In this document: piece after piece, positions 5,484 through 48,457 of the stretch | Position numbering within the stretch: position 1 is the first letter of the stretch | Layout of the letters: every line of letters starts with the position of its first letter | Assembly: GCA_019096195.1 (NCBI GenBank) | Contig: JAGTXK010000052.1 | Location: 62,001 to 126,000, forward strand | From: Boletus sp. NGJ | Lineage: Eukaryota > Basidiomycota > Agaricomycetes > Boletales > Boletaceae | Direction of reading: 5' to 3' | DNA: 64,000 nt | The notes under the pieces: generated by a model | What the model saw: only the letters and a program-made list of their open reading frames with translations | Told to the model about the DNA's origin: nothing | The model's database searches: none | Translations under genes and position numbers: made by a program

Positions 5484-5764
5484 GTCGGCCGGACCGTCCG
5501 GGGCTGGACCTTGTGCCCCTGAGTGAGGTCAGTTTTGGAGTTCTAACTTGGTCTCGGTTCTGATGGAACTTGGTGTGATTGTCTTGCCTCAGACTTTTGT
5601 GACGTACCTAATATGCAACTGCTTGGATCGGTAATATGTCATGTACACTGTGTTGGCGCTTGTTGCTGAAGCGGCGTCTAGTGCTGTCGTTGGTCCGGTG
5701 TCCGCCAAACTTGTGTGCCGTGGAGCAAACATCCGACACCCCTCTTGGAACGGGCAATGTGTTA

Positions 5765-6130
5765 CCCAGGCCAACGCGGCTGCTTGCTAGACGTGATCTC
5801 GCCGAAGTGCACGCTCTCGCTCTCAAGAAGGCAACTGCCGGTGGCCCGGGCGAGTACTTCGTTCATCGGGCAGTAGCAGTGGTGACTGGTCGCTCGATTG
5901 GCTTGGATTTGGGTTTGCAGAAAAAGATCCATCAACTGACGGCCGATCCATCGTCCCACCGTTATCTTCAGGGCTGAATTTGCGAGGCCTCAATGAACAC
6001 CAGTCCATTAGCATGGAAAACGAATTTCGAAACTGACGTGTCTGACCATGGTGGTATGTAGTACTACGTTTCTTCGTGAGTCGATACCGCCAACGACTCG
6101 AATTCATTGTTGAAACTCTGTGACCCTCCC
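5765..6130 (+). pseudogene. Decayed 3' fragment of an NAD(P)-dependent reductase (copy of the gene at 7.9-9.5 kb)
   Basis: The stretch reading DLAEVHALALKKATAGG matches DLAEAHALALGKEAAGG of the intact reductase 3 kb downstream. Further nucleotide similarity follows through the next intron and the last exon (for example GATCCATCAACTGACGG against GATCCATTAACTGACGG, and CCGCCAACGACT shared). The copy corresponds to about 9090-9390 of the intact gene. It lacks the N-terminal Rossmann motif and has no continuous frame, so it is a broken tandem copy. Sequence at 5640-5765 may be a more degraded continuation. Confidence 0.7.
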
Positions 6131-13939: not shown

Positions 13940-15848
13940 CCATCACTGCGAGCGAGCGTAACAGCCACTACAGCATCCCCGATTTGCGGTGCATTGATGT
14001 CGTCTCAACGGTGTAACAAGTCAACCCCTGTGTAGAAAGTTAGTGGCTATTACATGGGCGAAGCCAGTTCAAGCCCTGCCCTCGAAACAGCGTGCACGGA
14101 CACTATCCGCAGCCATGCGTCTTCTTCACTAGGATATGCGGTAATCGGGAGATGGGATGATGGTTACGAGTGATCACAGCGGTCCATTATGACATGCATA
14201 CCAAGCACAAACGACCCTATTACCATGTCTGCTTCAGAGAGCAGGATAATCGCTATTTCACACCACCTTCACACAGACGCCAGTTGAGTTGGACGAGTGA
14301 CCGGTGGTGGTCGTCCCTGACGTTGTGCGACATATGTTGCATTTTTCTTGGTCGAGCAGATGCGTTTATTATGAATGAAGTGGCGGGTATCATTAAACCA
14401 GTGACGACTTTTTGGCCACGCAGATATTGTTCGAGTCAACTGACATGTTTTCATAATACGCGAGTGCCTTCAAGTTGAAGGAACGATTCCTCGTTGGGGC
14501 ATCCCCGGAGTGCAATCTGGTCGCTAGACTGCCCGGGATGACCTGCCCGCGAGCAAGCGCCGAAAACACAGTTAACAGAGCGTGTGCACTGGTCTATATC
14601 AAGGAAGGGAAACCTGTACACATTGCAACGAAAGCAGACGGACCACAGCTTGCTTGTTGACTCTGTCCATTGCTGAGCAACAATCTGTCGCTGACTGACA
14701 GTTGACAAGAGCATTCTCCGGCCATCGAAATCAATGTAGGTCACAGCATACGTGCAATGGAATTCTGAGCAGATGGCGAGTATCTCGTGAGCGGAGATGA
14801 TGAGGGGGTTCGAGTGTGGCAAGTGGAAGACGGGAAGCTAATGGCAACAATGGCAGCGAAGCATGTCTCGTGTCTCGCTGCCTCGAAGGATGGCAGATGG
14901 ATCGCAGCGGGGACTGAGAGAGGCGAGCTGATTATGTGGGACGCAAAGACACTCGAAAAGGTCTTGACGCACAGGGACAACAATAGTGTCAGCGCAGTCG
15001 ATTTCTCACCAAACTCGTCTCGTCTCGTCGTTGCAGCATCATGGTTGACTAGCACAACCACAGTTTGGGACGTCGCAACTCGCACACCAGCAGCGGTTGA
15101 TCCACTCCTCCACAAGGGTTGCGTGAGAGCAGCGAAATTCTCGCCGCAAGGTGATTGAATCGCGACAGCCACCAGAGACAGCGTTCAGGTTCACGACAGC
15201 AGCGATCTCATGGACATCCCAGTAGGAGTAACCCAGTGGTGGGACAACACCGGTCCCCTCTGGTCGAACGACCAGCTCTTCATCGTGTCCGACAGCAGAA
15301 TCAAACAAATCGAATCATCCACCGGGTCACTAGTCTCAGAATGGCCAGTTCCCAATACCGACCACTCCCGGTGTATTCTCCTGCCGCAAGGCAGGGAGTT
15401 CATAGCATACTCTGCAGAGCGTACTGTTACGCTTTGGGACACGTCGACACAGACCCGGCTCGGTCTCATCCAACACACTCGAGACATTCACTCAATTGCC
15501 TTGTCACACAACGACCAGTTTCTCGCAATCGGTGGAGAGGATGGCAAAATCACCATCAAAAATCTCCGAGACGTCCTGCCTTCATCTGTTTTCACTGTAA
15601 GTATCATGTATGGTCGGATTAAATGCCGTATCGGAGTAGTTCTTTTGCCAATCCGACTTGCTTCGCTCTTCGTTCGACGTGGACACTGATCGCTTCGTCG
15701 CTCAGGCGCCATTCATTGACATCAGTGATTCTGCACTCAATTCCTGGAAGCAGGACCGGCTCGTTGACACAGAAGCATCACTGACAGGAACAATCACCGG
15801 TTCTACGCACCCGAGCCATCACGCACTCGCCAGTCGAGCCCTTGTGCT
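13940..15848 (+). pseudogene. Truncated duplicate of the 5' (WD40) part of the WD40-TPR-HET gene
   Basis: From about 13,940 the sequence follows 17,530-19,617 closely. It includes the presumed start (ATG at 14225 against 17873) and WD40 repeats reading DEGVRVWQVEDGKLMATMAA, VSAVDFSPNSSRLVVAASWL and NDQFLAIGGEDGKITIKNL, then the same GTAAGT donor after VFT. Similarity to this gene stops abruptly at about 15,848, inside the exon beginning APFIDISDSALNSWKQ. From there the sequence continues as a copy of the neighbouring minus-strand WD40 gene. The TPR and HET parts are absent. In-frame stops and many short indels interrupt it, so it cannot encode the full protein. Confidence 0.85.
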
Positions 15849-17150
15849 CTGGAAGTGTCTGAAGCGGAGGGCATGGGTACGGCATCTGACTGCAATATAG
15901 CATGGGATGGTCCCGGTGGCCGTGTATCGTCCTCACAAGAATCGGAAGAAAGGGCCAATGACTCCGGGAGCGTCAATGCCGAAGCAAGAGAAGAATGGAG
16001 TGATCACTAACCTCGTCATAATTGAACTCGGGAGCAGGTGTGCTCGATGGCACTTCAACCTATGCCATCATGAGAACTCGCTTTGAGTGGGAAACAAACA
16101 AACTGATACCTCGAGGAGATCATCGCCGTCTTCGTTATGTTCCTCGGACTCGAGTGGACTGGGATTCGCAGATTGTCCCTGTTGTGTGTACACAGTGACA
16201 ACCACAGCACAACTGCTTTAGTATTGGGACGACAAAATCCTACGGCTTTTGAGTTACGTGGATTGTTGTCATGGTCGCCTGATGTCGAAGATTCAAGGTC
16301 ATCATGTTGTACTTTGAGAGTAGATACCTGCATAGATTGTCAATGCGGGAAACATAATGGGTCCTGTCCGACATGCTGGGACTATAAAGGCACGGATACT
16401 TACATTGAATGGACCAGTATTACAAGTCCGGGAGAATCTTGCATGAATGACGATTTTTCCGTCCTGTCGTCCTGTCGCAAGAGTGACTGGCTACTGTCTG
16501 GTGAGATAGCAATTAAGATTGCTTCTTTGGTGTCCTCAACGACAGGGCCAATCCGAGACAATCTCGATGTATCCAGGAATGCAATGGAACGGTTTCCAAA
16601 GGTGGCGATGAGTTTGCCGTTGGCGGCTAGAGCGATAGAGTAGATGTCCCTGTGGAAAATTTGTGATTCAGCAAGCAGGGACGCAGTGGACATATCGAAT
16701 GCCCTAATTTTCAAGTTGTTGTCACACAGAAATGGCGAAGAACTCCATTCCCGTATGCTCTCAGTGACCGTCTGCAAGTCCGAACCATTGTCGAATCCCA
16801 TTATCATTCCCGCCTAAGACATGCTTTCCGTCGGGGTAAAAAGCGACTGCGAACACCCGTTCAGAGCGACCGGTGCCCAGAACTACTGTTTGGTCTTCAA
16901 GTTACTGAATGGTCAGCATTACTCTATCACTCCTCGGAACCGCTACGCACCGATATTCAAATCGACGACATTCTGACCAATGGTACACAAGTCGTAGTGT
17001 TGGAAGAGTGAAAAAACAACGTATGTTTTTCGGTTAACTCCCGCTGCGCAAAGTCACTGCTGTATAAACACGTTGCCTCGTTCTCAATTTCAATATGGTG
17101 CGTCTGCCTCGTGTCCTTGGCGCTTATCTGGATTGTTTCCAGCTAGGTGA
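15849..17150 (-). pseudogene. Truncated duplicate of the minus-strand WD40 gene at 24.5-26.3 kb
   Basis: This block matches 24,772-26,460 in the same orientation. It holds the tail exon sequence, the last WD40 repeats (SLLAESQIFHRDIYSIALAA, NGKLIATFGNRSIAFLDTS) and the 5' end of the gene (up to about 17,020). About 430 bases that encode most N-terminal WD40 repeats in the parent (roughly 25,630-26,065) are missing, and the 3' end of the gene lies beyond the junction at 15,848. Long runs, such as 15,900-16,330, are almost identical to the parent, so the duplication is recent. It is not a functional gene. Confidence 0.85.
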
Positions 17151-17872
17151 CCTCATTGCGATGACCAGGCAAGCAGTCAATATCAGCAAAACCTTGAATC
17201 TTTTCCAAAGGTAGGCTGCGATTATCCGTCATGTCTAGGCTGCAACGAGTGTATGATCTGCACTAGACCGATATAGATATACATACCGGGCAGAAAATAC
17301 AGCACGTTCTTGTGCTTCCCAACTGTCTCTCCGGAGCTCGAATGGTCGCGCTCGCATACTGCCTCATTGGCGCTAGCAATGCCCTTGGACGCTCAACAAC
17401 ATGCTCCCTGGCTCACAACGGGCAGTCTGTCTGACTGACTCAGATCTGCATGAAAGCCATGGCATTGCCAGAACTTGTCCTCAAGTGCTGTTCGAAGCGA
17501 TCCTATGTACACAGTGCTGTATGCACGTCAGTGTGATCAAGCGCTAACAGTCCCTACTTACAGCATGCCCAAGATGCGGAGTTCCGATTATCGTCATGTA
17601 GTGGCGCAACAAACCAACCTTGTGCGGGAGAAATCTGCGGCTAGCAAATGGGGAAAGAACGTCCTGCCCGTTAACGGCATGGACCGACACTACTATCCGC
17701 AGCAACATGTCTTCTTCACTGGGATATGCGGGACCTCTATGAGGAGGTAAAATTCGGATGAGGACACGTCCCTTGCGGGGGTGCGTCCGGGTCCAACAAA
17801 CTGCCTGCGAACCAGGTGACGTTGAGGGCTATGAAGTCCATACTGTCAGTGAATACAAACGACCCTATTACC
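17151..17872. other. Upstream region of the WD40-TPR-HET gene
   Basis: No gene supported. The part from about 17,530 is the parent of the start of the duplicate (13,940 onward) and should hold the promoter. Confidence 0.4.
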
Positions 17873-20800
17873 ATGTCTGCTTCAGCAGAGCAGGATAATT
17901 CGCTGGTTCTCACACCACCTTCACTACAGACCCCACTTGAGTTCGACGGGCGACCGGTGGTGGTCGCCCCTGACGTTGTGCGACATATATAGTATGCTTT
18001 TTTCCTTGGATCGGTCGAGCAGATGCGTCTATTATGAATGAAGTGGCGGGTATCATGAAGCCAGGTGACGACTTGTTGGCCATCGCTAGATAGTTGTTCG
18101 ATGTCAACTGACATGTTTTCATAATACGCGAGTGCCTTCAAGTCGAAGGAACGATTCCTCGTTGGGGACATGCGCCCGGAGTGCAGTCTGGTCGCTAGAC
18201 TGCCCGGGATGACCTGCCCGCGAGTACTAAGCAGGCGCCGAAAACACGGTTGACAGCGCGTGTGCACTGGTCTATATCAAGGAAGGGCAACCTGTATCTA
18301 CTTCATGCAACGAGAGCAGACGGACCACAGCTTGCTTGTTGACTCCTGTCCATCGCCGAGCTATTGAACATTCTGTCGCTGATGGCCACACCATCGACAA
18401 TGACCACCGGTGCGTACTGGAAAGATTGAGCTGCGTTGATGCTGACAGTTGACAAGAGCATTCTCCGGCCATCGAAATCAATGTAGGTCACAGCATACGG
18501 GCAATGCAATTCTCGAGCTCATGGCGAGCATCTCGTGAGCGGCGATGAGGAGGGGGTTCGTGTGTGGCAAGTGGAAGACGGGAAGCTAATGGCAACGATG
18601 GCAGCGGAGCGTGTCCTCGTCTCTCGCTGCCTCGAAGGATGGCAGATGGATCGCAGCGGGGACTTGAGGAGAGGCGAGCTGATTATGTGGGACGCAAAGA
18701 CACTGCGCAAGAAGGTCTTCACGACACGAGGACGACCACCGCCCATAGTGTCAGCGCAGTCGATTTCTCACCCGACTCGTCTCGTCTCGTCGTTGCAGCA
18801 TCATGGTTGACTAGCACAACCACAGTTTGGGACGTCGCAACTCGCACACCAGCAGCGGTTGATCCTCTCTCCACGACAATTTCGTGATAGCAGCGAAATA
18901 CTCGCCGCAAGGTGATCGAATTGCGACGGCCACCATAGACAGCGAAGTTCGGGTCTACGACAGCAGCGATGGCCGCTTGCTCATGGACATCCCAGTAGGA
19001 GTAACCCAGTGGTGGGACAACACTGGTCTCCTCTGGTCGAACGACCAGCTCTTCATCGTGTCCGACAGCAGAATCAGGCAAATTGAATCATCCACCGGGT
19101 CACTAGTCTCAGAATGGCCAGTTCCCAATACCGACCACTCCCGGTGTATTCTCCTGCCGCAAGGCAGGGAGTTCATAGCATACTCTGCAGAGCGTACTGT
19201 CTTGTTTTGGGACACGTCAACACAGACCCAGCTCGGTCTCATCCAACACACTCGAGACATTCATTCAATTGCCTTGTCACACAACGACCAGTTTCTCGCA
19301 ATCGGTGGAGAGGACGGCAAAATCACCATCAAAAATCTCCGAGACGTCCTACCTTCATCTGTTTTCACTGTAAGTATCATATATGGTTGGATTAAATGCC
19401 GCATCAGAGTAGTTCTATTGCCAATCCGACTTGCTTCGCTCTTCGTTCGACGTGGACACTGATCGCTTCGTCGCTCAGGCGCCATTCATTGATATCAGTG
19501 ATTCTGCACTCAATTCCTGGAAGCAGGACCGGCTCGTTGACACAGAAGCATCACTGACAGGAACAATCACCAGTTCTACCCACCCGAGCCATCACGCACT
19601 CGCCAGTCGAGCTCTTGTGCGAACACATCTGCGACATTGGGAAGTAGCGGTCGACGATGCAGAAACCGTCAGTCTTCGTTTACTCTTCCGCACGTTTATG
19701 CTCACTCTGCTCTGTGTTACTGCAAAGTCCATCAAAATTCGACCATCCGTCATTGGCTACGTCGCAAAGAGTGTCGCACTCATCGGCAGGGGAAAGAAGA
19801 AGGAGGGTCGCCGGGTTTTCGACTTCGTGTTCAGGCACTGTGACCCAATTCACGTGGATCTTCTCCTTTTGATGAAGGTGTGTATTCGCCGTGCAGACCT
19901 TAGTTGCCCCTAAGCTGCTTATTGACTCAGGCTGTCGTCTTGTTCATGGCCGGAGAACACGACGATGCGATATCGCGCGTTGGGGACCTCATTTCTGAGA
20001 TGCCTTTCAACTCAATATTCCATGTGGTTCAGGCACGTCAATGACACGCTGTGACATGGTGAATATCACAACTGACGCATCTACAAGGCATATATGTATT
20101 TTCTTCTTGGGAACGAGCATATAGAAAAAGACGACTACCAGGGAGCAATTCAGTCATTTAAGCATGCACGAGACCGAATGCGATACTACGTAGGGCTTCC
20201 TCTCTCCATCTCATTGGTAAGTTTCCTACCAATTATTTCGCGCCGTGTGGACACCACTCATTCTCTTCAACAGATATCTGGTTGGAAGTGTGATAATGTT
20301 GGCGTGACGATTCAACAACGTCTTTGCGAAGCCCTGTATGCAGCAGGTCACACAAAGGAGGGAGGCGAATCACTTCTCAAAATGGTAGATACCTTTGGCA
20401 CAAAGGTCTATATGAGTAGATCCATCATCACATGGGTGTCTGGTGGGGTTTCTCTTCCTCTTACTGCCATATATTTATATTTGACTGATTTTTGCAGATT
20501 TCACTCGACGGTGTCTCTCTGCTCGCGAAAGTGATGTAACCCGACACGACGAAGTGACGATGCCTCAAGCAATCCTCAGTTCAACCGCCACCACGCCGCT
20601 TTTGAGAGAGTGGGCAAAATCAACATTAGCGAGTGGTTCATGGAAAGACGCCATGGTTGATGCTGTCAATGTAAATACACATCTTCTTTTGAGATCCGAC
20701 ATCTCTTGTGGGTCTGACATTCTTGGTTTTGGAGTTCATGCTTCCGAGATTTGCAATTTATCGGGTCATTTGTGAATGTCTCGAAACGATGGACCGCATA

Positions 20801-23749
20801 ACGGACGCGATTGAGTGTTTGCAACAACTGGTGAGCGAATTGGCAGGGGAAAAGGACACGCATGGTGAGCACGCGAAACGGTTCCCTGGTGAGGTGTCGT
20901 GTATGTCGCATGGGTGGCATTTAGTTGACCGCTCTCTCAGACCTGAAGCATTGGCAGCGCTGTGCGGAAAAGCTAGCGCGCTTCGAAGATGCAGCAGCAG
21001 ATGCCCAACGACATGACGATGCGATTATTCAGTATTCAGCTGCATTGTCCCTCAATCCTGCTCGCCCGCAAGACTTCTTCATCAAGCGAAGCAAGGAATT
21101 TATGGCAAAGTGGTCATGGGAGGATGCCTTGGATGATACGAATCACGTGTGTTGTTTGCGCCTTGCGCAGGTCTGACTGACCTTGTGCGACCCGGAATCA
21201 TCAGGTAATAATACTCAATCCGTTGTCTACGTGGGGCTACGAGAGTGTGTTGACAGAGTGGGCAAAGGCCAAACTGACGGATGGTTCGTGGAGGGACGCC
21301 TTGAGAACTGTTGGGGGTGTAAGTGTATCCCTCCATTGACATGTATTAAGAAATCAACATCTGATTTCAAGTTCAAGGTGCCGAGACTGATAATGTATCG
21401 GGCCATGTGTGAACTTCTCGAAACAGTCGACCGTGTAATGGATGCTACCGAGTGTATCCATGAATTAGCAAATGAATTAGCGCAGGAGATAGAAGGCAAG
21501 GAGGGGAAATGGGTTCTCGGTGAGTGATTGTGCCTGCGACATAGGTGGCATCCGTGTGACCACTGTCAGACTTCAAATCTCGATGTTTTGGGAAGCTAGA
21601 GGACCTCGGAGATGCCGCAATGAACACTCAGCAATATGACGAAGCCATCTCTCAGTATTCAGCTGCATTGTCCCTGAATCCTACTACCCCACAAGCCCAG
21701 ATCTTTGTTAAGCGAAGTAAGGCACGTGCGGCGAGGGGCTTGTGGGAGGATGCATCCAATGATGCAAACGAGGCATGGCATTTTTGTTACCCCAGGAATG
21801 TCTTTATTAATGGGGATTGCCAGGCCATCAGTCTTGATCCATCGTCACCATCTGGCTATGAAAGGAAATATGTGGCGTCACGCGGAGCAGGACATCATCA
21901 AGATACATTGCATGCGTTCGAGACCATGCTGTTGAAAATGACGCAGTCGACTGATCCAGAGATTCGTGGTGAGGGTGATGACTTCATACTAGGGATTATA
22001 TACTAATTTTGTCCCGTAGAGCGTTGTCGCCAGTACACCGAAACGAGAGGAGTGATTCGCAAAGCCATTCAGGATGCTATTCGTGAGTCGCCGCGAGTGC
22101 TCATTAACACCACTTCTGGCCGTCTCTGCAACAAATCTGAGCAAGCTACTGCATTTGAACTACTGCCAGTCTTCACAGAGCTCATCTCGTCCAAGACCGA
22201 ACGCATGGACTATTTCCGTATCGAACAAGAAGTTGCACAGTACTATCGTTATGCCACGCTTTCACACAAGTGGGAGGACAATGAACCTCTATTCGAAAAG
22301 GTCTTACACATTGTGGTGTACGATCTTGAGGAGTCTCCCACTCATGACAAGCTGCAAATGTTCTGCAAGATTGTGCAGAATGCCGGGTTCCATTGGGCAT
22401 GGAGCGATACGTGTTGTATCAACAAAGCAGATCACTTCGTGCTCCAAGAAGCCCTTGTCGCCATGTTCAAGTGGTACCAGGGTTCTGCTCTGACGATCAT
22501 TTTTCTCTGTGGCGTTCGCTCTCCATCGCAGCGTGGTGATCTCGCGAAGAGCATTTGGAATACTCGTGCCTGGACATTCCAGGAATATCATGCATCCAAA
22601 GTGGTCCGATTCTACACCGAGGATTGGACGCCGTACATGAATATTGACATTCCTAACCACAAGGAGTCGCCCGATATCATCTCGGAGATGGAGGTGGCCA
22701 CCGGTGTCTCGGCACGAGCCTTGATGGCACTCCGACCAGGCTTAGACGACATCAGGGAAAAGCTGTGTCTAGCTTCAATACGAAAGACGACGTTCGTGGA
22801 GGATGCGGCATACTCGCTACTTGGCATATTTTCCGCCTCGTTGTCGGTTGTATATGGCGAGGGGGACAAGTCACTCGGGCGACTCCTGGCACAGCTACTC
22901 ACGAGCTCGGGAGACATGAACATCCTTGCGTGGACAGGGAGATCTGGCAGCTTCAATAGCTGCCTACCTGGAGATATCACTGTATTCCACGAGTTGCCGA
23001 CATCGCATATTCCGCCAGCCATCAAAGGTGGCGAAATGGACGTGATCATTGCCGGATTGCGTGTGTCTTCACTCAATCTCGCCTTGGCTATGAAGTTATA
23101 CGACCGACTCGACGAGCTCCCTGTACCATTGTTTGTGGGACAACGGATGAAGCTCCCGTGCATGAGATTCAAGCTGGGGTCTCTATCGCCTTCTCGGAGC
23201 AGGTCTGAACGTGTTTTCCGTGCACAGACAGCTGCACTCGGGATCGTGCAGATTCGGACTAGAGTGGATCTCTCTCGACTGGACTCTCTATACCTCATTC
23301 ACCCTTGGATTGACTTTCTCCTTGACCGACGGCCTGTCGGGAGCGTAGCAGATATGATATCTGAAGAGAACACTGATGACTGGTCTTCTTTGGTTAGCGA
23401 GTTGGCATCATTCCTCGGCCCCTCCGATATCACACTGGCAGAAACCCAAGAGGTACGGCCCATTCCCCTTGGACTGCCGTTGGGTGAACGGTCTATTACA
23501 CCTACCCCCTCAGATGCGGCATCTCTCCGGCCTCCTTCGTCTATATTGCAGACGGACAAGGAGATGCGAGCCCTTCGACTGATAGCTCGACTGAGACAAC
23601 CGTTTGGAGCACTGTTGGTCACCCCGACCCGCCAGAATGTAGCAGAATACAGGAGGGTCGCTTCGGAGAGTAGGATCACTGTGCAGGTACAGGAAGGCAC
23701 GTCGTTGAACGCGCTGGTAGACAGCGCGCGGATGTTGGATGTGCTTTGA
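17873..23749 (+). CDS. WD40-TPR-HET domain protein (heterokaryon-incompatibility type); 5' part disturbed
   Basis: A large multi-exon gene with three parts. WD40-like repeats occupy about 18,500-19,370 (LLWSNDQLFIVSDSRIRQIE, NDQFLAIGGEDGKITIKNL). TPR-like helices lie at about 19,930-22,000; two related units read DDAIIQYSAALSLNPARPQ and DEAISQYSAALSLNPTTPQ. A HET domain spans about 22,200-22,900 in the long last exon: YRYATLSHKWEDNEPLFEKV, then WAWSDTCCINKADHFVLQEA and NTRAWTFQEYHASKVVRFY, then the YSLLGIFSASLSVVYGEG motif. HET domains trigger cell death in fungal non-self recognition (family knowledge). From 18,884 on, frames and splice joints hold. The first kilobase carries several small indels relative to its own duplicate, so either the WD40 start is damaged or translation begins downstream. 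It converges on the minus-strand WD40 gene. Confidence 0.82.
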
Positions 23750-24511
23750 CGACCGGTTTCAGGTCTTATTCACGCTGGTACCTACGTGTCGACGCGCGGT
23801 GGTGTACATGCGCGTACGCGGCCGATAGCACGATTACCGTGGAAGTGCGGGAGGACGTCCCCTTCGATGAGCCTCTCGACAATGTACGCATACTGTACTA
23901 CTTCAAGGAACCACGAAGGAACCTCTGCACGCTTAGAGTTGGTCGGTGACCTTCGAGTAAATATCCTAGGGAGCTCCGATAGGCTTATCAGGATTCTGCG
24001 AGATACACAAACTGAAAGGAATGCAGGGGTCCATGTAATACATTGAACCACGTGGATCAATGTGCTCCATCGTGTGTAATTGAGCGGCAACACAACAACC
24101 ACATGGGATATCTGACTCGAATCGAAAGCCTGAGGGTACCGTAGCCCGATTCTTCCTGATGCTGATCCATTGTAAGTCTCACAATGTAGGTGAACGCAAA
24201 GTAACGCGCACCGTTGGTTGGACCACCGCGGGCGAGGGTTGGGATGCATTGGTCGCTTGTTGCGCCTAATGGGACGTGAGCTGACGTGACGAAGTCCACC
24301 ATCGCCAGAAAGAGACGAACCGGGCCCGCTTCCCTTGTATCCACAGCACCTTGTCCTCCACTACGAGAAGCATCATTGTTTGGAGGTTTAGGAATAGTGG
24401 TCTTGCTACGTGATTTATCCTGTGGCGTGTGATGAGTTCCTGCATACAAATCCGAGGAGCGACGAACTCCCGGCCTTCTAACGGTTTTTGCGACCGCTCG
24501 CTAAGATATAT
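23750..24511. other. Convergent 3' region between the HET gene and the WD40 gene
   Basis: No independent gene. On the minus strand an open stretch at 24,057-24,449 could be extra 3' exon sequence of the WD40 gene if splicing occurs at the GTAAAC just before its stop; I could not decide this. Confidence 0.35.
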
Positions 24512-26302
24512 TCAACTCATTGCATTCGATCGTCCATCGAGGAAAGCACTCACTCGCTTACGTTTACCTTCAGCCATCCACGAAGGTCCTTCATTTGTAG
24601 CAGCTGGTCTCACTGAGGAGTGGGAAGGTGATCGATGATCAGCAGGCTCACGCGACTTCCCGGTGTGTCGATCTGGCTTATGCGAAGCCGCGCCTTTCTT
24701 ACCCATTCTCTGTCGCCACTTTTTGAATATTGAATAGCCCTGTGGTGACTCGACAGTGTTGAGATTTCCCTCTGGAAGTGTCTCTGAAGCGGAGGGCATG
24801 GGTACGGCATCTGACTGCAATATAGCATGGGATGGTCCCGGTGGCCGTGTATCGTCCTCACAAGAATCGGAAGAAAGGGCCAATGACTCCGGGAGCGTCA
24901 ATGCCGAAGCAAGAGAAGAATGGAGTGATCACTAACCTCGTCATAATTGAACTCGGGAGCAGGTGTGCTCGATGGCACTTCAACCTATGCCATCATGAGA
25001 ACTCGCTTCGAGTGGGAAACAAACAAACTGATACCTCGAGGAGATCATCGCCGTCTTCGTTATGTTCCTCGGACTCGAGTGGACTGGGATTCGCAGATTG
25101 TCCCTGTTGTGTACACAGTGACAACGTCAGCACAACTGCTTTAGTATTGGGACGACAAAATCCTACGGCTTTTGAGTTACGTGGATTGTTGTCGTGGTCG
25201 CCTGATGTCGAAGATTCAAGGTCATCATGTTGTACTTTGAGAGTAGATACCTGCATAGATTGTCAATATGGGAACATAATGGGTCCTGTCCGACATGCTG
25301 GGACTATAAAGGTACGAATACTTACATTGAATGGACCAGTATACAAGTCCGGGAGTATCTTGCCGAGATCATGAATGACGATTTTTCCGTCCTGTCGTCC
25401 TGTCATAAGATGGCTACTGTCTGGTGAGATGGCAATTGAGATTGCCTCTTTGCTATCCTCGACGACAGGGCCAATCCGAGACAAACTCGATGTGTCCAGG
25501 AATGCAATGGAACGGTTTCCAAAGGTGGCAATGAATTTGCCGTTGGCAGCTAGAGCGATAGAGTAGACGTTCTCATGCAGAAATTGTGATTCAGCAAGCA
25601 GGGACCCAGTGGACACATCGAATGCCCTGATTTTGTTGCCACGGGATGTCCCAAAAATTCGCTGGCCATCACTTGACCATGCAAGCGGAGTGGACACCCG
25701 GTCAGGTATGTCAATTTTGATGGTGATGAGCTTGTCACCAGTATGACTGTCGAAAATCTGGATGGACACCCCCACAGAGGCAGTGGCGACGTGCTCCAAG
25801 TCGCCATTCCGGGAGAATCGAATTCCAGTGACTGGCGCGTCATGTTTGAGCGGGCCAACGAGTCGCTCCCCGGTCGTGATGTTCCAAATGCTCGCATGTT
25901 CGCTAGTCCCGGTTGCAAACCTGGTCGAATCTGGGGAGACATCGACCGCCCACACCACATTTCTGCCCTCCACCTCGATGACCTTTTCATGCATTTCTCC
26001 GTCCCACACACTTGCACCCATCTGTAAAGTCCCACAAACTACCCACTTGTGATCCTTCGACACAGAAATGGCGCGCAACTTCATTCCCATTTGCTTTCTG
26101 ATCTCTTGACCGTCTGCGAGTCGCCATCGTAGAATCCCATTATCATTCCCACCCAAAACATGCTTTTCGTCGGGGTAGAAAGCGACCGCGAACACCCGAT
26201 CAGAGCGACCGGTGTCCAGGACTACTTTTTGGTCTTACTGAATGGTCAGCATTACTCTATCACTCCTCGGGGCCGCTACGCACCGGTATTCATCGACGAC
26301 AT
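24512..26302 (-). CDS. WD40 repeat protein with disordered C-terminal tail
   Basis: Exons on the minus strand: 26302-26284, 26233-25326, 25250-25035, 24984-24937, 24886-24512. Together they give 1566 coding bases, all joints in frame. The start is MSSMNTDQKVVLDTG. Repeats with WD40 character follow: VFAVAFYPDEKHVLGGNDNG, VVWAVDVSPDSTRFATGTSE, VTGIRFSRNGDLEHVATASV, VYSIALAANGKFIATFGNRS and ISIAISPDSSHLMTGRQDGK. The tail from exon 3 is polar and Ser/Glu-rich with a basic patch (YSIFKKWRQRMGKKG). The last repeat (DGKIVIHDLGKILP) and the intron right after it match the HET gene's last WD40 repeat and intron, so the two convergent genes are paralogous there. No catalytic domain is seen; a scaffold or sensor role is inferred. 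A deleted copy lies at 15.8-17.1 kb. Confidence 0.85.
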
Positions 26303-26451
26303 TCTCACCAATGAAACCCAAGTCGTGGCTTTGGAAGAGTGAAAAAAAAAGTATTTCGGTTTACTCCCACCGCGCAAAGTTGCTGTATAAACACGTACGT
26401 GCCTTGTTCTCATGCGGTGCGTCAGCCTCATGTCCTTGGCGCTTATTCTTA

Positions 26452-42169: not shown

Positions 42170-43807
<1,638 letters not shown>

Positions 43808-44291: not shown

Positions 44292-47200
44292 TTAGAACCG
44301 CCTCGACCCACCACCGACCAAGCCCTCGATTGAATGATGTTCGAGCTCGTTCCTCGCCTTCAAGATCGACGCGTGCATCTCCTTCATCGCATTTCCTAGC
44401 TTGACGCCGAATCGACTCAAAATGTCCCTCTGCCATGCGTCGTACTTGGCGTTCACCCGCGCTTGTACCTGTTCGTAATCGACGACGCAAACGCCGAAAC
44501 CACGCTGCGTTTCCGAGGTGTCGAACGTCGATCGCGCTTTTTTGATTTCGGTGAGGAGCTGTTGCCAGTGTGCGAGCGAGTCTCCGAGTCGGTTGAAGAC
44601 GTATTCGGCTTCGAGATCCCAGAGGGATTGGAATTGAAGCCATTTGGCGACGTAGTCTTTCAGTTGCTGGACCTTGAGTTCCACGAGGGCGAATGGCCGC
44701 TCTAGGGTATTATCGGAAAAGTGTGTCAACTATGCAAGCGCGTCTGTCAGCAAGACAGGCAAGCGCAGACACTATAGTTCACCCACGAGAGAAGTGTACG
44801 TCGTTTCAGAGGCGAGATTCCGTTGCATCTGCAAACCAATCTCATATCTCGAACTTTGAATACGGCGTAATCGGCAAATGACGCCTACACACAGATTAGC
44901 ATTGCCACGGCAACTGATCCAAGTAACACTTACCAAGCCAGTCATGCAGTTGTTTGATCCACGTCGAACGAGCATACTCTATTGGAGGGTCAAGGAAGAT
45001 GACTTGGTTCTGTATCCGAATCTCGTGCACAATAGGTTTCAAGGCCATGTTTCCTTCCAGCATCTGCGGAGACCTCGTAAGCATGCCCTCAGAAGTGTGA
45101 CAAAAGATGACCGACCTTCTCTTCCCGAGCACCTTTTCCGGCTCGTCGTTTGTTAGTTATGTCACGTAGAGGCAGGAGATCGCGACGGGTATCTCCATCG
45201 TCCGTCCGATCAAATTCAGAGCACCAGACTTGAATGACGTGCGTGAGACGCTGCAATAGTATCCCCTCTATTCGCTTATCCAGTTCCGCCACCCAATGTT
45301 CCAAATTGGCGTAACCTTCCAAGTTCAAACGATCAATCTAAATAAAGTGGAGAAAAAAAAAAGATCAGCATGGCACGTTGCGACGGTGATAAAAATTCGT
45401 ACCGCAGCCTGAACCTTGCTCAAAAGTTCCGAAAAGGCTTCGTGGGTATACGCACATGTTGCTAGGTCTTCAACTGCCCGAAGGATGTCCCGATACAAAT
45501 CGATCACGTTGTTCGTCTTGTCTTGCAACACCGAAACCACGCTAGCGAACTCGCGGACAAATTGGATATGTCTGTTGTCTCGCCCATCGCCACCGGACAC
45601 GAAACGAGCCGTGTCATACTGGTTCACAAAATAGTCCCACCGGATGCTCATGCCTGGGAGGTTGTAGTCTAGCGGGTGCGCAAGGGTGACGAAGCAGAGA
45701 ACATACCCTTTGCAACCATCCTCTGAGCTTCGTTACGATATTCGGCGACAAGCCATTCGATCCCTTGGTTGTGCTCCACCAAATCTAACGTTTGTCCATA
45801 TGTCCTAACCGTTTCCATCAGCGATACAGCGTGGGGATACACCCTTTTAGCGTCCTTTGCCATATTTGTAATCATGTGTGGGACTTGGAAGTTGAGCCAA
45901 AGCAAGTTTCGAACTTCCTTGAACAGGGTGATCGTTTGTGGGTCAAAGTTGACCGCCAGTTGGAACCCTCCACCACGCAACCGTACGATCTCGAAAAGTC
46001 GTCCGTTGACGGCCATGTCCCGTCGGTTGATGTCGTGTAGCCAAGCTTCGAAGACAGGTCGAGTGTCAAGTTTCTTGCGGAAAGCAGTTGATTCGGATTG
46101 AAGCTTCTGACCCTCGGCGTAGAGTTCCCATCCTTTCCCAAGGACGTCCTCTACACGTTTCATGTACGTCAAGAGTTGTCGCTCGATTTGCCGGGCCCAA
46201 ATGATAGCCCCAGCGATTGGCGGAAGGTCGCGCATTTGAGACATGTGATACGCTTCCGAGAACCGGTATTGAGTTTTGAACTGGCAAAGACGTCGGTGGC
46301 ATGTCCAAGACCAAGAAACTTAATATTCACCTTATCGTGTAGACGCTTAATATCTTCTTTCACAGAGTCAATAAGCTGTGTTTGATACTCTTGGATGGCA
46401 CCTCGGATCTGGGGGGTGGAGATCATTGCATATACCTAAGATATAAGAGAATGGAGCCGACCTTGGGTCGAACGAACAAAGCATTGAACTTGGAGAACAC
46501 TCTAAACATCTCGTTCGCGTTACGTGCAGTGCCTAGCCTATCGCGCAGCCTTGCAATGATTTGGTTCTCCACTCTTGCCACCCGTTCGTTGTATGCATTT
46601 TCAGCAGCGACCCAGATTTCAGTGCCCTCTGTGCGAAGGATCAACGCCCCATGCTCAGGTCAAGCACGCAAAGTCGGACTCACCAACAGAGACATCCAGA
46701 GACGTCGATCCGCTTAACTACTTCGTATGCCTCCTTCACCTCCTCTTCCATATCCATTCCCCCCACTTCTTTCGTAACACTGCCCAACCCCTTTGTCGGA
46801 CCCGTCATCACTGCAAGCTGCTCGTGTTGTTTCCGCCAATCCTTTAGATACCTCGTCCGTTCCTGTAACTTGGCGTGCGCGGGGACCACCTTGATTGGGA
46901 TGAACTTCTCTGACCGTCTCCTCGTAACCTCACGGGCAACATTCGTGAATTCCTTGATGAGATCGTCCCACGTACGGAAAATGTTCATCGTTTGGGACAG
47001 TAATCGATCGAATGTCTCATATGGTGTGTACGGCAGTCGATGCGATGTAAGTACGCGGAGTAATTGGTCATTGAAATCTCGAGATATGGCCTCCACGAGA
47101 GGAAGCGCGCGTCGGATTGGGTAAGGGGAGAGCTTGAGCTTGCGGTTAATGTGCCCAAAAATCAATATAAGCGATTCCTGAATCTTGTCAAGGTCCGTAG

Positions 47201-48457
47201 CCGAGAGAAGCTCGTTCAGTGGGAAGTCTTTCATCAATTGATTGTACTTGTGGACTGATTCATGTATTGATGAGGCGCATACACTTCACACAAGAGCGTT
47301 TGCTGGGTACTCACCAAGATCCGTAGAACTATTCAAACCAGTGTCCGCAATGAAACTGACCGTTGCGTGGAACCGTTTTGCGTTTCTGAGGCACTCCATG
47401 ACCATGTTCACTTCTTCGGTCCGTAGTTGGGCTTCGATTCCTTCCAACGCCCTCTCCAAACTCAACCAGAAATTGATTTCTTGTGAAGCAGTGCCGGAAG
47501 ACACGTCGCGAGTGAGCTTTGTGACTGCTTGGATAGATTTGATCCATGAGTTCACATGCCCATGTAGGGTGTTAAGGAAGGAGCTGTCGTTGAGGAACTT
47601 TGCGGGTATATGTGAAATATTGGGTCTTTGACCCATCGCCTGGGCCTTTAATGCGAGTCAGTTACGATTCAAACACCCAGTAAAACCACCGGACTTGTTC
47701 GACAGCCCGCTGGATGACGGGATGGATTATGAGATGCGTTTCCGGTATTTCAACGTTTTGTTGAAGATGCAAAAGGGATAACTCGAGCTCCGCGAACTTC
47801 TTTTTCGTCATGGGTATTCCTATACGCAAATGAGCTGAGCACGGATTGCTTTGACTATACCTGCTTACCCAATTTGCTGTCGCCATCTTTGCCAGCGCCG
47901 CGCGCACCCACAAACGCATCGAACCATGGCTTCACACCGCAACTCACCACAGCATGCAGACTCTCATATGGCGTCTCCTCACCCCCAAACAAATTCAGAA
48001 TATGTAGTTGGGTAGCTAGAGAAGTGAGCGGATCTAGGGTTGGACCGCGCTTGATGAGGGCTAGCGAGGTGATGTTTGAAGGGGAATAAGTAAGCTGAGG
48101 GGTGAGTTGATAGTAGAATCTTGGAGGACCATCCTCTGCTATGCGTTAGATCGGTTCGGGCCAGAGCCAAGCCTACACCTCACCCTCTGTGTCTTCCTTG
48201 ACTTTGACGACATATATGACGCCCCCGCCCTCCGCTGCAAACCTCGATACTTTCTCGTCGAATTCATCGTCGAACAGTGACATGAGTTCTTCCGGGTACG
48301 CGCCAAGCACCGGGGGTAGAAGCGAGAGAAGGTACGAGCGGAAAAGAGAGACATCGAGCGGCAGAGGTGCATCAACAGGATCGTCATGGGAAGGTACGCC
48401 GTTGGAGGTGGAACTCGTCAATGGCGGCGTTGAGCCGTTCCCATTCATCATTGCCAT
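44292..48457 (-). CDS. Cytoplasmic dynein heavy chain, tail region only
   Basis: Read leftward from [20 protein letters not shown] (48457). Exon segments follow the dynein heavy-chain N-terminal tail (DHC_N1): [142 protein letters not shown]-like segments, LHDWL, and finally [20 protein letters not shown] and [15 protein letters not shown]. The protein then ends with LVGGGSRRF and a stop at 44292. Usual heavy chains continue with the linker and six AAA modules, over 4000 residues in all; here only about 1200 residues are encoded. MET2 on the other strand occupies the next DNA. Either the heavy chain is split in this lineage or this is a rearranged partial gene. The tail binds intermediate and light intermediate chains. 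Confidence 0.85.

Follow-up and report, generated by a model that had tools for sequence, protein, structure and literature searches.

Split cytoplasmic dynein heavy chains have been described in several groups of basidiomycetes. In S. commune, the heavy chain consists of two gene products, dhc1 (1180 amino acids, tail) and dhc2 (3450 amino acids, motor), as reported by Brunsch et al. 2015 (PMC4540427). According to the same report, Agaricomycetes and Dacrymycetes share this split as a conserved feature, and the heavy chains of Ustilaginomycotina and Wallemiomycetes are split at other sites. In its Table 3, ten of the eleven agaricomycete rows show a Dhc1 that ends in SIEG-L-x-G...RRF and a Dhc2 that starts with SSTAAAV, the row of C. 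cinerea being the sole exception. The two genes are reported to lie on one scaffold, up to about 500 kb apart, with dhc2 linked to matA.

The window analyzed here is a stretch of 64 kb (C75:62001-126000) from a genome of 32.8 Mb in 141 contigs. It contains a dynein heavy chain tail gene on the minus strand, which, judged from its sequence, is almost certainly the dhc1 of an agaricomycete two-gene cytoplasmic dynein heavy chain. The complementary dhc2 is located on contig C81 of the same genome.

Organization of the tail gene

Ten minus-strand open reading frames (ORFs) of the locus were scanned with Pfam. The DHC_N1 domain exceeded the cut-off in three of them (E 1.2e-45, 7.8e-23 and 1.2e-19), matched a fourth below the cut-off (E 9.3e-4) and was absent from the other six. 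Of eight ORFs of the gene searched against PDB sequences, seven gave matches. The reference comprises chains designated cytoplasmic dynein 1 heavy chain 1, with 4646 residues, which we take to be human. Reference residues ~101-177, 327-479, 541-596, 622-820, 950-989 and 1033-1159 are covered. The match of ORF 45325-45732 to a dynein heavy chain construct is weak (E 5e-4), and ORF 45089-45337 remained without a match in both the Pfam and the PDB searches. No motor domain was found within dhc1, which bears out the preliminary description in that the linker and the AAA modules are missing.

The edited gene model proposes 13 exons, 12 introns and about 1,170 codons (Table 1), against nine introns reported for dhc1 (PMC4540427). 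The raw output of the gene-model script comprised 1,132 codons and 14 introns, and comparison with the raw frames revealed wrong short exons near 46.7-46.85 kb. Two proposed introns, 46780-46851 and 46718-46766, were rejected, as they were judged to be artefacts of a frame discontinuity.

The protein terminates in the Dhc1-type arrangement of SIEG, L-x-G...R-R-F and a stop. Nine residues follow SIEG, as opposed to eight in Table 3 of PMC4540427, so that the terminal peptide is one residue longer than in the ten matching rows. Closely matching endings in that table include SIEGLVGAPRRF, one residue shorter. These nine residues had been regarded as unrelated, but they are the conserved C-terminus of Dhc1; ten of the eleven agaricomycete rows end closely alike.

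An alpha/beta-hydrolase gene on the plus strand is arranged tail-to-tail with dhc1 at a distance of 484 bases; of its three ORFs scanned, one matched Abhydrolase_1 (E 5.3e-9). The close, convergent neighbor that had been described is thereby confirmed, and it is probably MET2 (homoserine O-acetyltransferase).

Table 1 Features of the dhc1 locus, in positions of the 64-kb window.
Feature	Position	Strand	Evidence
dhc1 (tail gene of split heavy chain)	44292..48457	-	Gene model, Pfam DHC_N1 and PDB matches
dhc1 exon 1, proposed start MAMMNGNG (putative start codon)	48184..48457	-	Gene model; ORF without Pfam match
dhc1 exon 2	47869..48135	-	Reference N-terminal residues ~101-177, E 4.6e-9
dhc1 exon with DHC_N1 match and frame discontinuity	46684..47254	-	ORF 46680-47285; model; residues 327-479; reference order at 530-554
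dhc1 exon with strongest DHC_N1 match	45707..46280	-	Pfam, PDB match, model
dhc1 last exon	44292..44729	-	Reference residues 1033-1159, E 1.1e-40; model
Dhc1 C-terminal extension LVGGGSRRF and stop	44292..44321	-	Compared with Table 3 of PMC4540427
Convergent alpha/beta-hydrolase gene	42251..43807 (limits approximate)	+	Abhydrolase_1

The DHC_N1 tail, said to run cleanly through the gene, is confirmed as a tail, but its reading frame changes by one base near 46,690-46,710. Here, VKRIDV and LDVSV, which are neighboring stretches of the reference (VKEVDGLDVSKEGTEAW), lie one base out of frame, and no plausible intron was found at 46.69-46.71 kb. A similar one-base change is present in dhc2, just after the P-loop of AAA3, near C81:1,274,555. 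Since a discontinuity of this kind occurs in each of two genes that are open elsewhere, both are probably residual assembly errors. It is very unlikely that the change is a true lesion and dhc1 a dying gene. A second contig, C22, carries the same letters at this place, which would fit a true lesion, but the similar discontinuity in dhc2 points to assembly error, the dhc1 model is elsewhere open across its 13 exons, and dhc1 is the only tail gene found.

The motor gene and the heavy chain inventory

The preliminary description had suggested looking for a second gene that starts near the linker and for a second, full-length heavy chain. The former was found at C81:1,269,610-1,281,021, starting at reference residue 1159/1160. 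This gene, dhc2, carries the remainder of the tail as well as the linker and motor. In profile searches, AAA_6, DHC_N2 and Dynein_C each matched one region genome-wide, all on C81, and six of the seven exon stretches scanned there showed further matches (AAA lids, AAA_7, AAA_8, MT stalk, AAA_9, AAA_lid_11 and Dynein_heavy). The heavy chain is thus divided between two genes, at a site other than that of Ustilago, as had been considered.

The first coding exon of dhc2 consists of ATGGAG only (two codons) and is followed by a 56-base GC-AG intron (exon and intron, C81:1,269,610-1,269,671). Joined across this intron, the protein starts with MEAFSPSNSSTAAAVTFITFVQ, a Dhc2-type start of the form ME...SSTAAAVTFITFVQ that differs by one residue from the one listed for S. 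lacrymans in Table 3 of PMC4540427. Upstream in the SPSNSSTAAAVTFITFVQ frame itself, a stop is reached before any ATG (ORF 5532-6041 of the C81 piece, in which position 5611 is C81:1,269,610). The second coding exon corresponds to reference residues 1159-1235 and the next to 1236-1422. The dhc2 model of 3,434 codons is raw script output and approximate, with wrong short exons near C81:1,270,866-1,271,069, 1,274,546-1,274,588 and 1,275,539-1,275,645 on comparison with the raw frames. The resulting protein lengths, about 1,170 and 3,434 amino acids, are near the 1180 and 3450 amino acids of S. commune (PMC4540427).

A full-length heavy chain was not found in the genome with AAA_6, DHC_N1, DHC_N2 and Dynein_C. 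All listed matches of these four families exceed the cut-off, and the counts are lower bounds for large families. In the AAA_6 control, three of 14 control genomes showed matches, none of them above the cut-off. DHC_N1 gave six matches genome-wide, confined to the dhc1 locus and its near-identical copy on C22. The heavy chain inventory found with the four families comprises one motor gene and one tail locus in two contig copies, and the two genes form the sole heavy chain set found in the genome.

The copy on C22 bears on whether dhc1 could be a truncated extra copy, produced by rearrangement beside an intact full-length gene, as had been offered as an alternative. The assembly does contain two copies of the locus, one on C75 and one on C22. 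Over 46,131 aligned bases (C22:1-46,129 and window 17,870-64,000), the identity of the two contigs is 99.98%, as fits redundant or allelic contigs, and none of their ten differences (eight mismatches, two gaps) lies inside dhc1. Their identity extends to C75:136,000 and C22:56,129, the limit of the pieces compared; between the last 10 kb of C75 and the collinear C22:141,000-150,999, no match of more than 150 bases was found. From this comparison, C22 looks like a redundant or allelic contig that differs further out, and not like an extra gene. In addition, the only motor gene found has no adjoining DHC_N1 match in the whole-genome search, and the C-terminal peptide of dhc1 is conserved across species (PMC4540427). 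As far as the assembly reaches, a truncated extra copy is unsupported, given that the four domain families revealed no full-length heavy chain, and we give this reading practically no weight. Apart from the dhc1 locus, window positions 14222-17127 contain diverged local repeats, stretches with a similarity of 82-94% to parts of C22:1-8577 (window 17870-26446).

Equally minute is the probability that a misassembly at 44.2-44.3 kb has cut a normal full-length gene. Residual one-base problems do seem to be present in the assembly. However, C22 and C75 are identical at every position across the gene end and the convergent neighbor, though possibly from the same reads; the motor gene has a start of its own, with a spliced two-codon first exon; and this junction has also been reported for other species (PMC4540427).

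Position of the break within the tail

As placed by alignment, the break in the dhc1/dhc2 chain is inside the tail and not at the tail/linker border, where it had been presumed. dhc1 stops at reference residue 1159 and dhc2 resumes at 1159/1160 without a gap, between ELEQHSVD and TSDAVTFITYVQ of the reference chain in the alignments of both exons. Both ends meet at the same reference residue and are complementary. The DHC_N2 match in dhc2 begins at C81:1,270,205, about residue 1320 by alignment, so that the Pfam domain starts roughly 160 residues past the break. The 6f38 chain, presumably a tail construct, reaches residue 1455, about 300 residues past the break.

Two other published breaks lie in the motor. 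In U. maydis dyn1/dyn2, the break is inside the fourth AAA module, and in Wallemiomycetes it is between AAA1 and AAA2, as opposed to the tail here (PMC4540427). With the present break at residue 1159/1160, AAA4 is uninterrupted by it: AAA_8 (D4) matches at profile positions 39-251 of 259 within one exon of the motor gene, and the P-loop immediately precedes it in this gene. Likewise, AAA_6 (AAA1) is located in the second gene, and a break of the Wallemia type is absent. The likeness to the dhc1/dhc2 system of S. commune and other Agaricomycetes includes the break point, the Dhc1 terminal peptide, the Dhc2 start and the presence of one locus each (PMC4540427). The split had been proposed as a different solution; it is the one already described for Agaricomycetes and Dacrymycetes.

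The dynein tail consists of nine helical bundles (PMC5473941). Single-sequence structure predictions of the two exons at the break show helical segments that end loosely at the break, weakly, given their low confidence (mean pLDDT 53.6 and 54.7). In the two-gene heavy chain, Dhc1 supplies the N-terminal dimerization region and most of the tail; what remains of the tail, together with the linker, AAA ring, stalk and C-terminal domain, comes from Dhc2. The two chains would have to assemble non-covalently into one working heavy chain. Most likely, the break permits this by falling in a short loop that connects two helices of the tail, where neighboring helices and accessory chains would hold the pieces together.

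Joining of the two transcripts by trans-splicing into one full-length mRNA would be another way to restore the chain. The two-codon exon and intron of dhc2 place an acceptor just upstream of the conserved SNSSTAAAV, and a GT (GTCGGT, a weak donor) directly follows the SIEGL codons in dhc1. This GT, however, belongs to the codon for the valine of LVG, and this valine is missing from two of the ten matching rows, with LQG in F. mediterranea and LLG in S. lacrymans (PMC4540427). Furthermore, ten of the eleven rows conserve the Dhc1 terminal peptide at the protein level, the products are treated as two proteins in that report, and no report of such joining was found in the titles and abstract openings of the papers surveyed. 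Trans-splicing is accordingly an exceedingly improbable explanation, and we retain two separately made chains.

The two-codon exon and its intron may also be viewed as a conserved relic of an intron of the fused gene, marking the origin of the split, although this is unlikely. Two Dhc2 rows of Table 3 start with MEVR (PMC4540427), which may fit a read-through of the GT donor after ATGGAG. In a bolder form of the relic-intron idea, the dhc2 acceptor and the dhc1 GT after SIEGL may still permit dhc1 and dhc2 transcripts to be joined occasionally, giving one heavy chain.

Linkage and significance

In this assembly, dhc1 is located on C75/C22 and dhc2 on C81, where the nearer end of the contig is about 458 kb away. 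A peptidase M3 gene beside homeodomain genes is a typical setting of matA, and such a gene adjoins homeodomain genes at C130:71-77 kb (C130:71423-77067). C40 has a second peptidase M3 gene, and C35 a further homeodomain match. Further homeodomain matches were observed on the 12 kb contig C132 (C132:1966-11073); the loci on C130 and C132 are possibly two alleles of mating-type locus A. Unlike in the published genomes (PMC4540427), dhc1, dhc2 and the candidate mating-type A region lie on separate contigs here, the contigs being unordered. The end pieces of C75 (10 kb each) gave 84 and 108 scattered partial matches, as expected from dispersed repeats, the best-scoring being to C111 at 93-94% for the right end and to C31 at 85% for the left end.

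The arrangement is real, ordinary and already published (PMC4540427), and is found here in one more genome. The small additions are the two-codon exon of dhc2 with its GC-AG intron and the location of dhc1 and dhc2 on different contigs. As a whole, the locus extends the tail-split dynein already published to one more genome and places the break at residue 1159/1160 of the mammalian heavy chain. Biologically, a working motor that is made as two separate pieces is striking, but such a motor had been reported in 2015 (PMC4540427).
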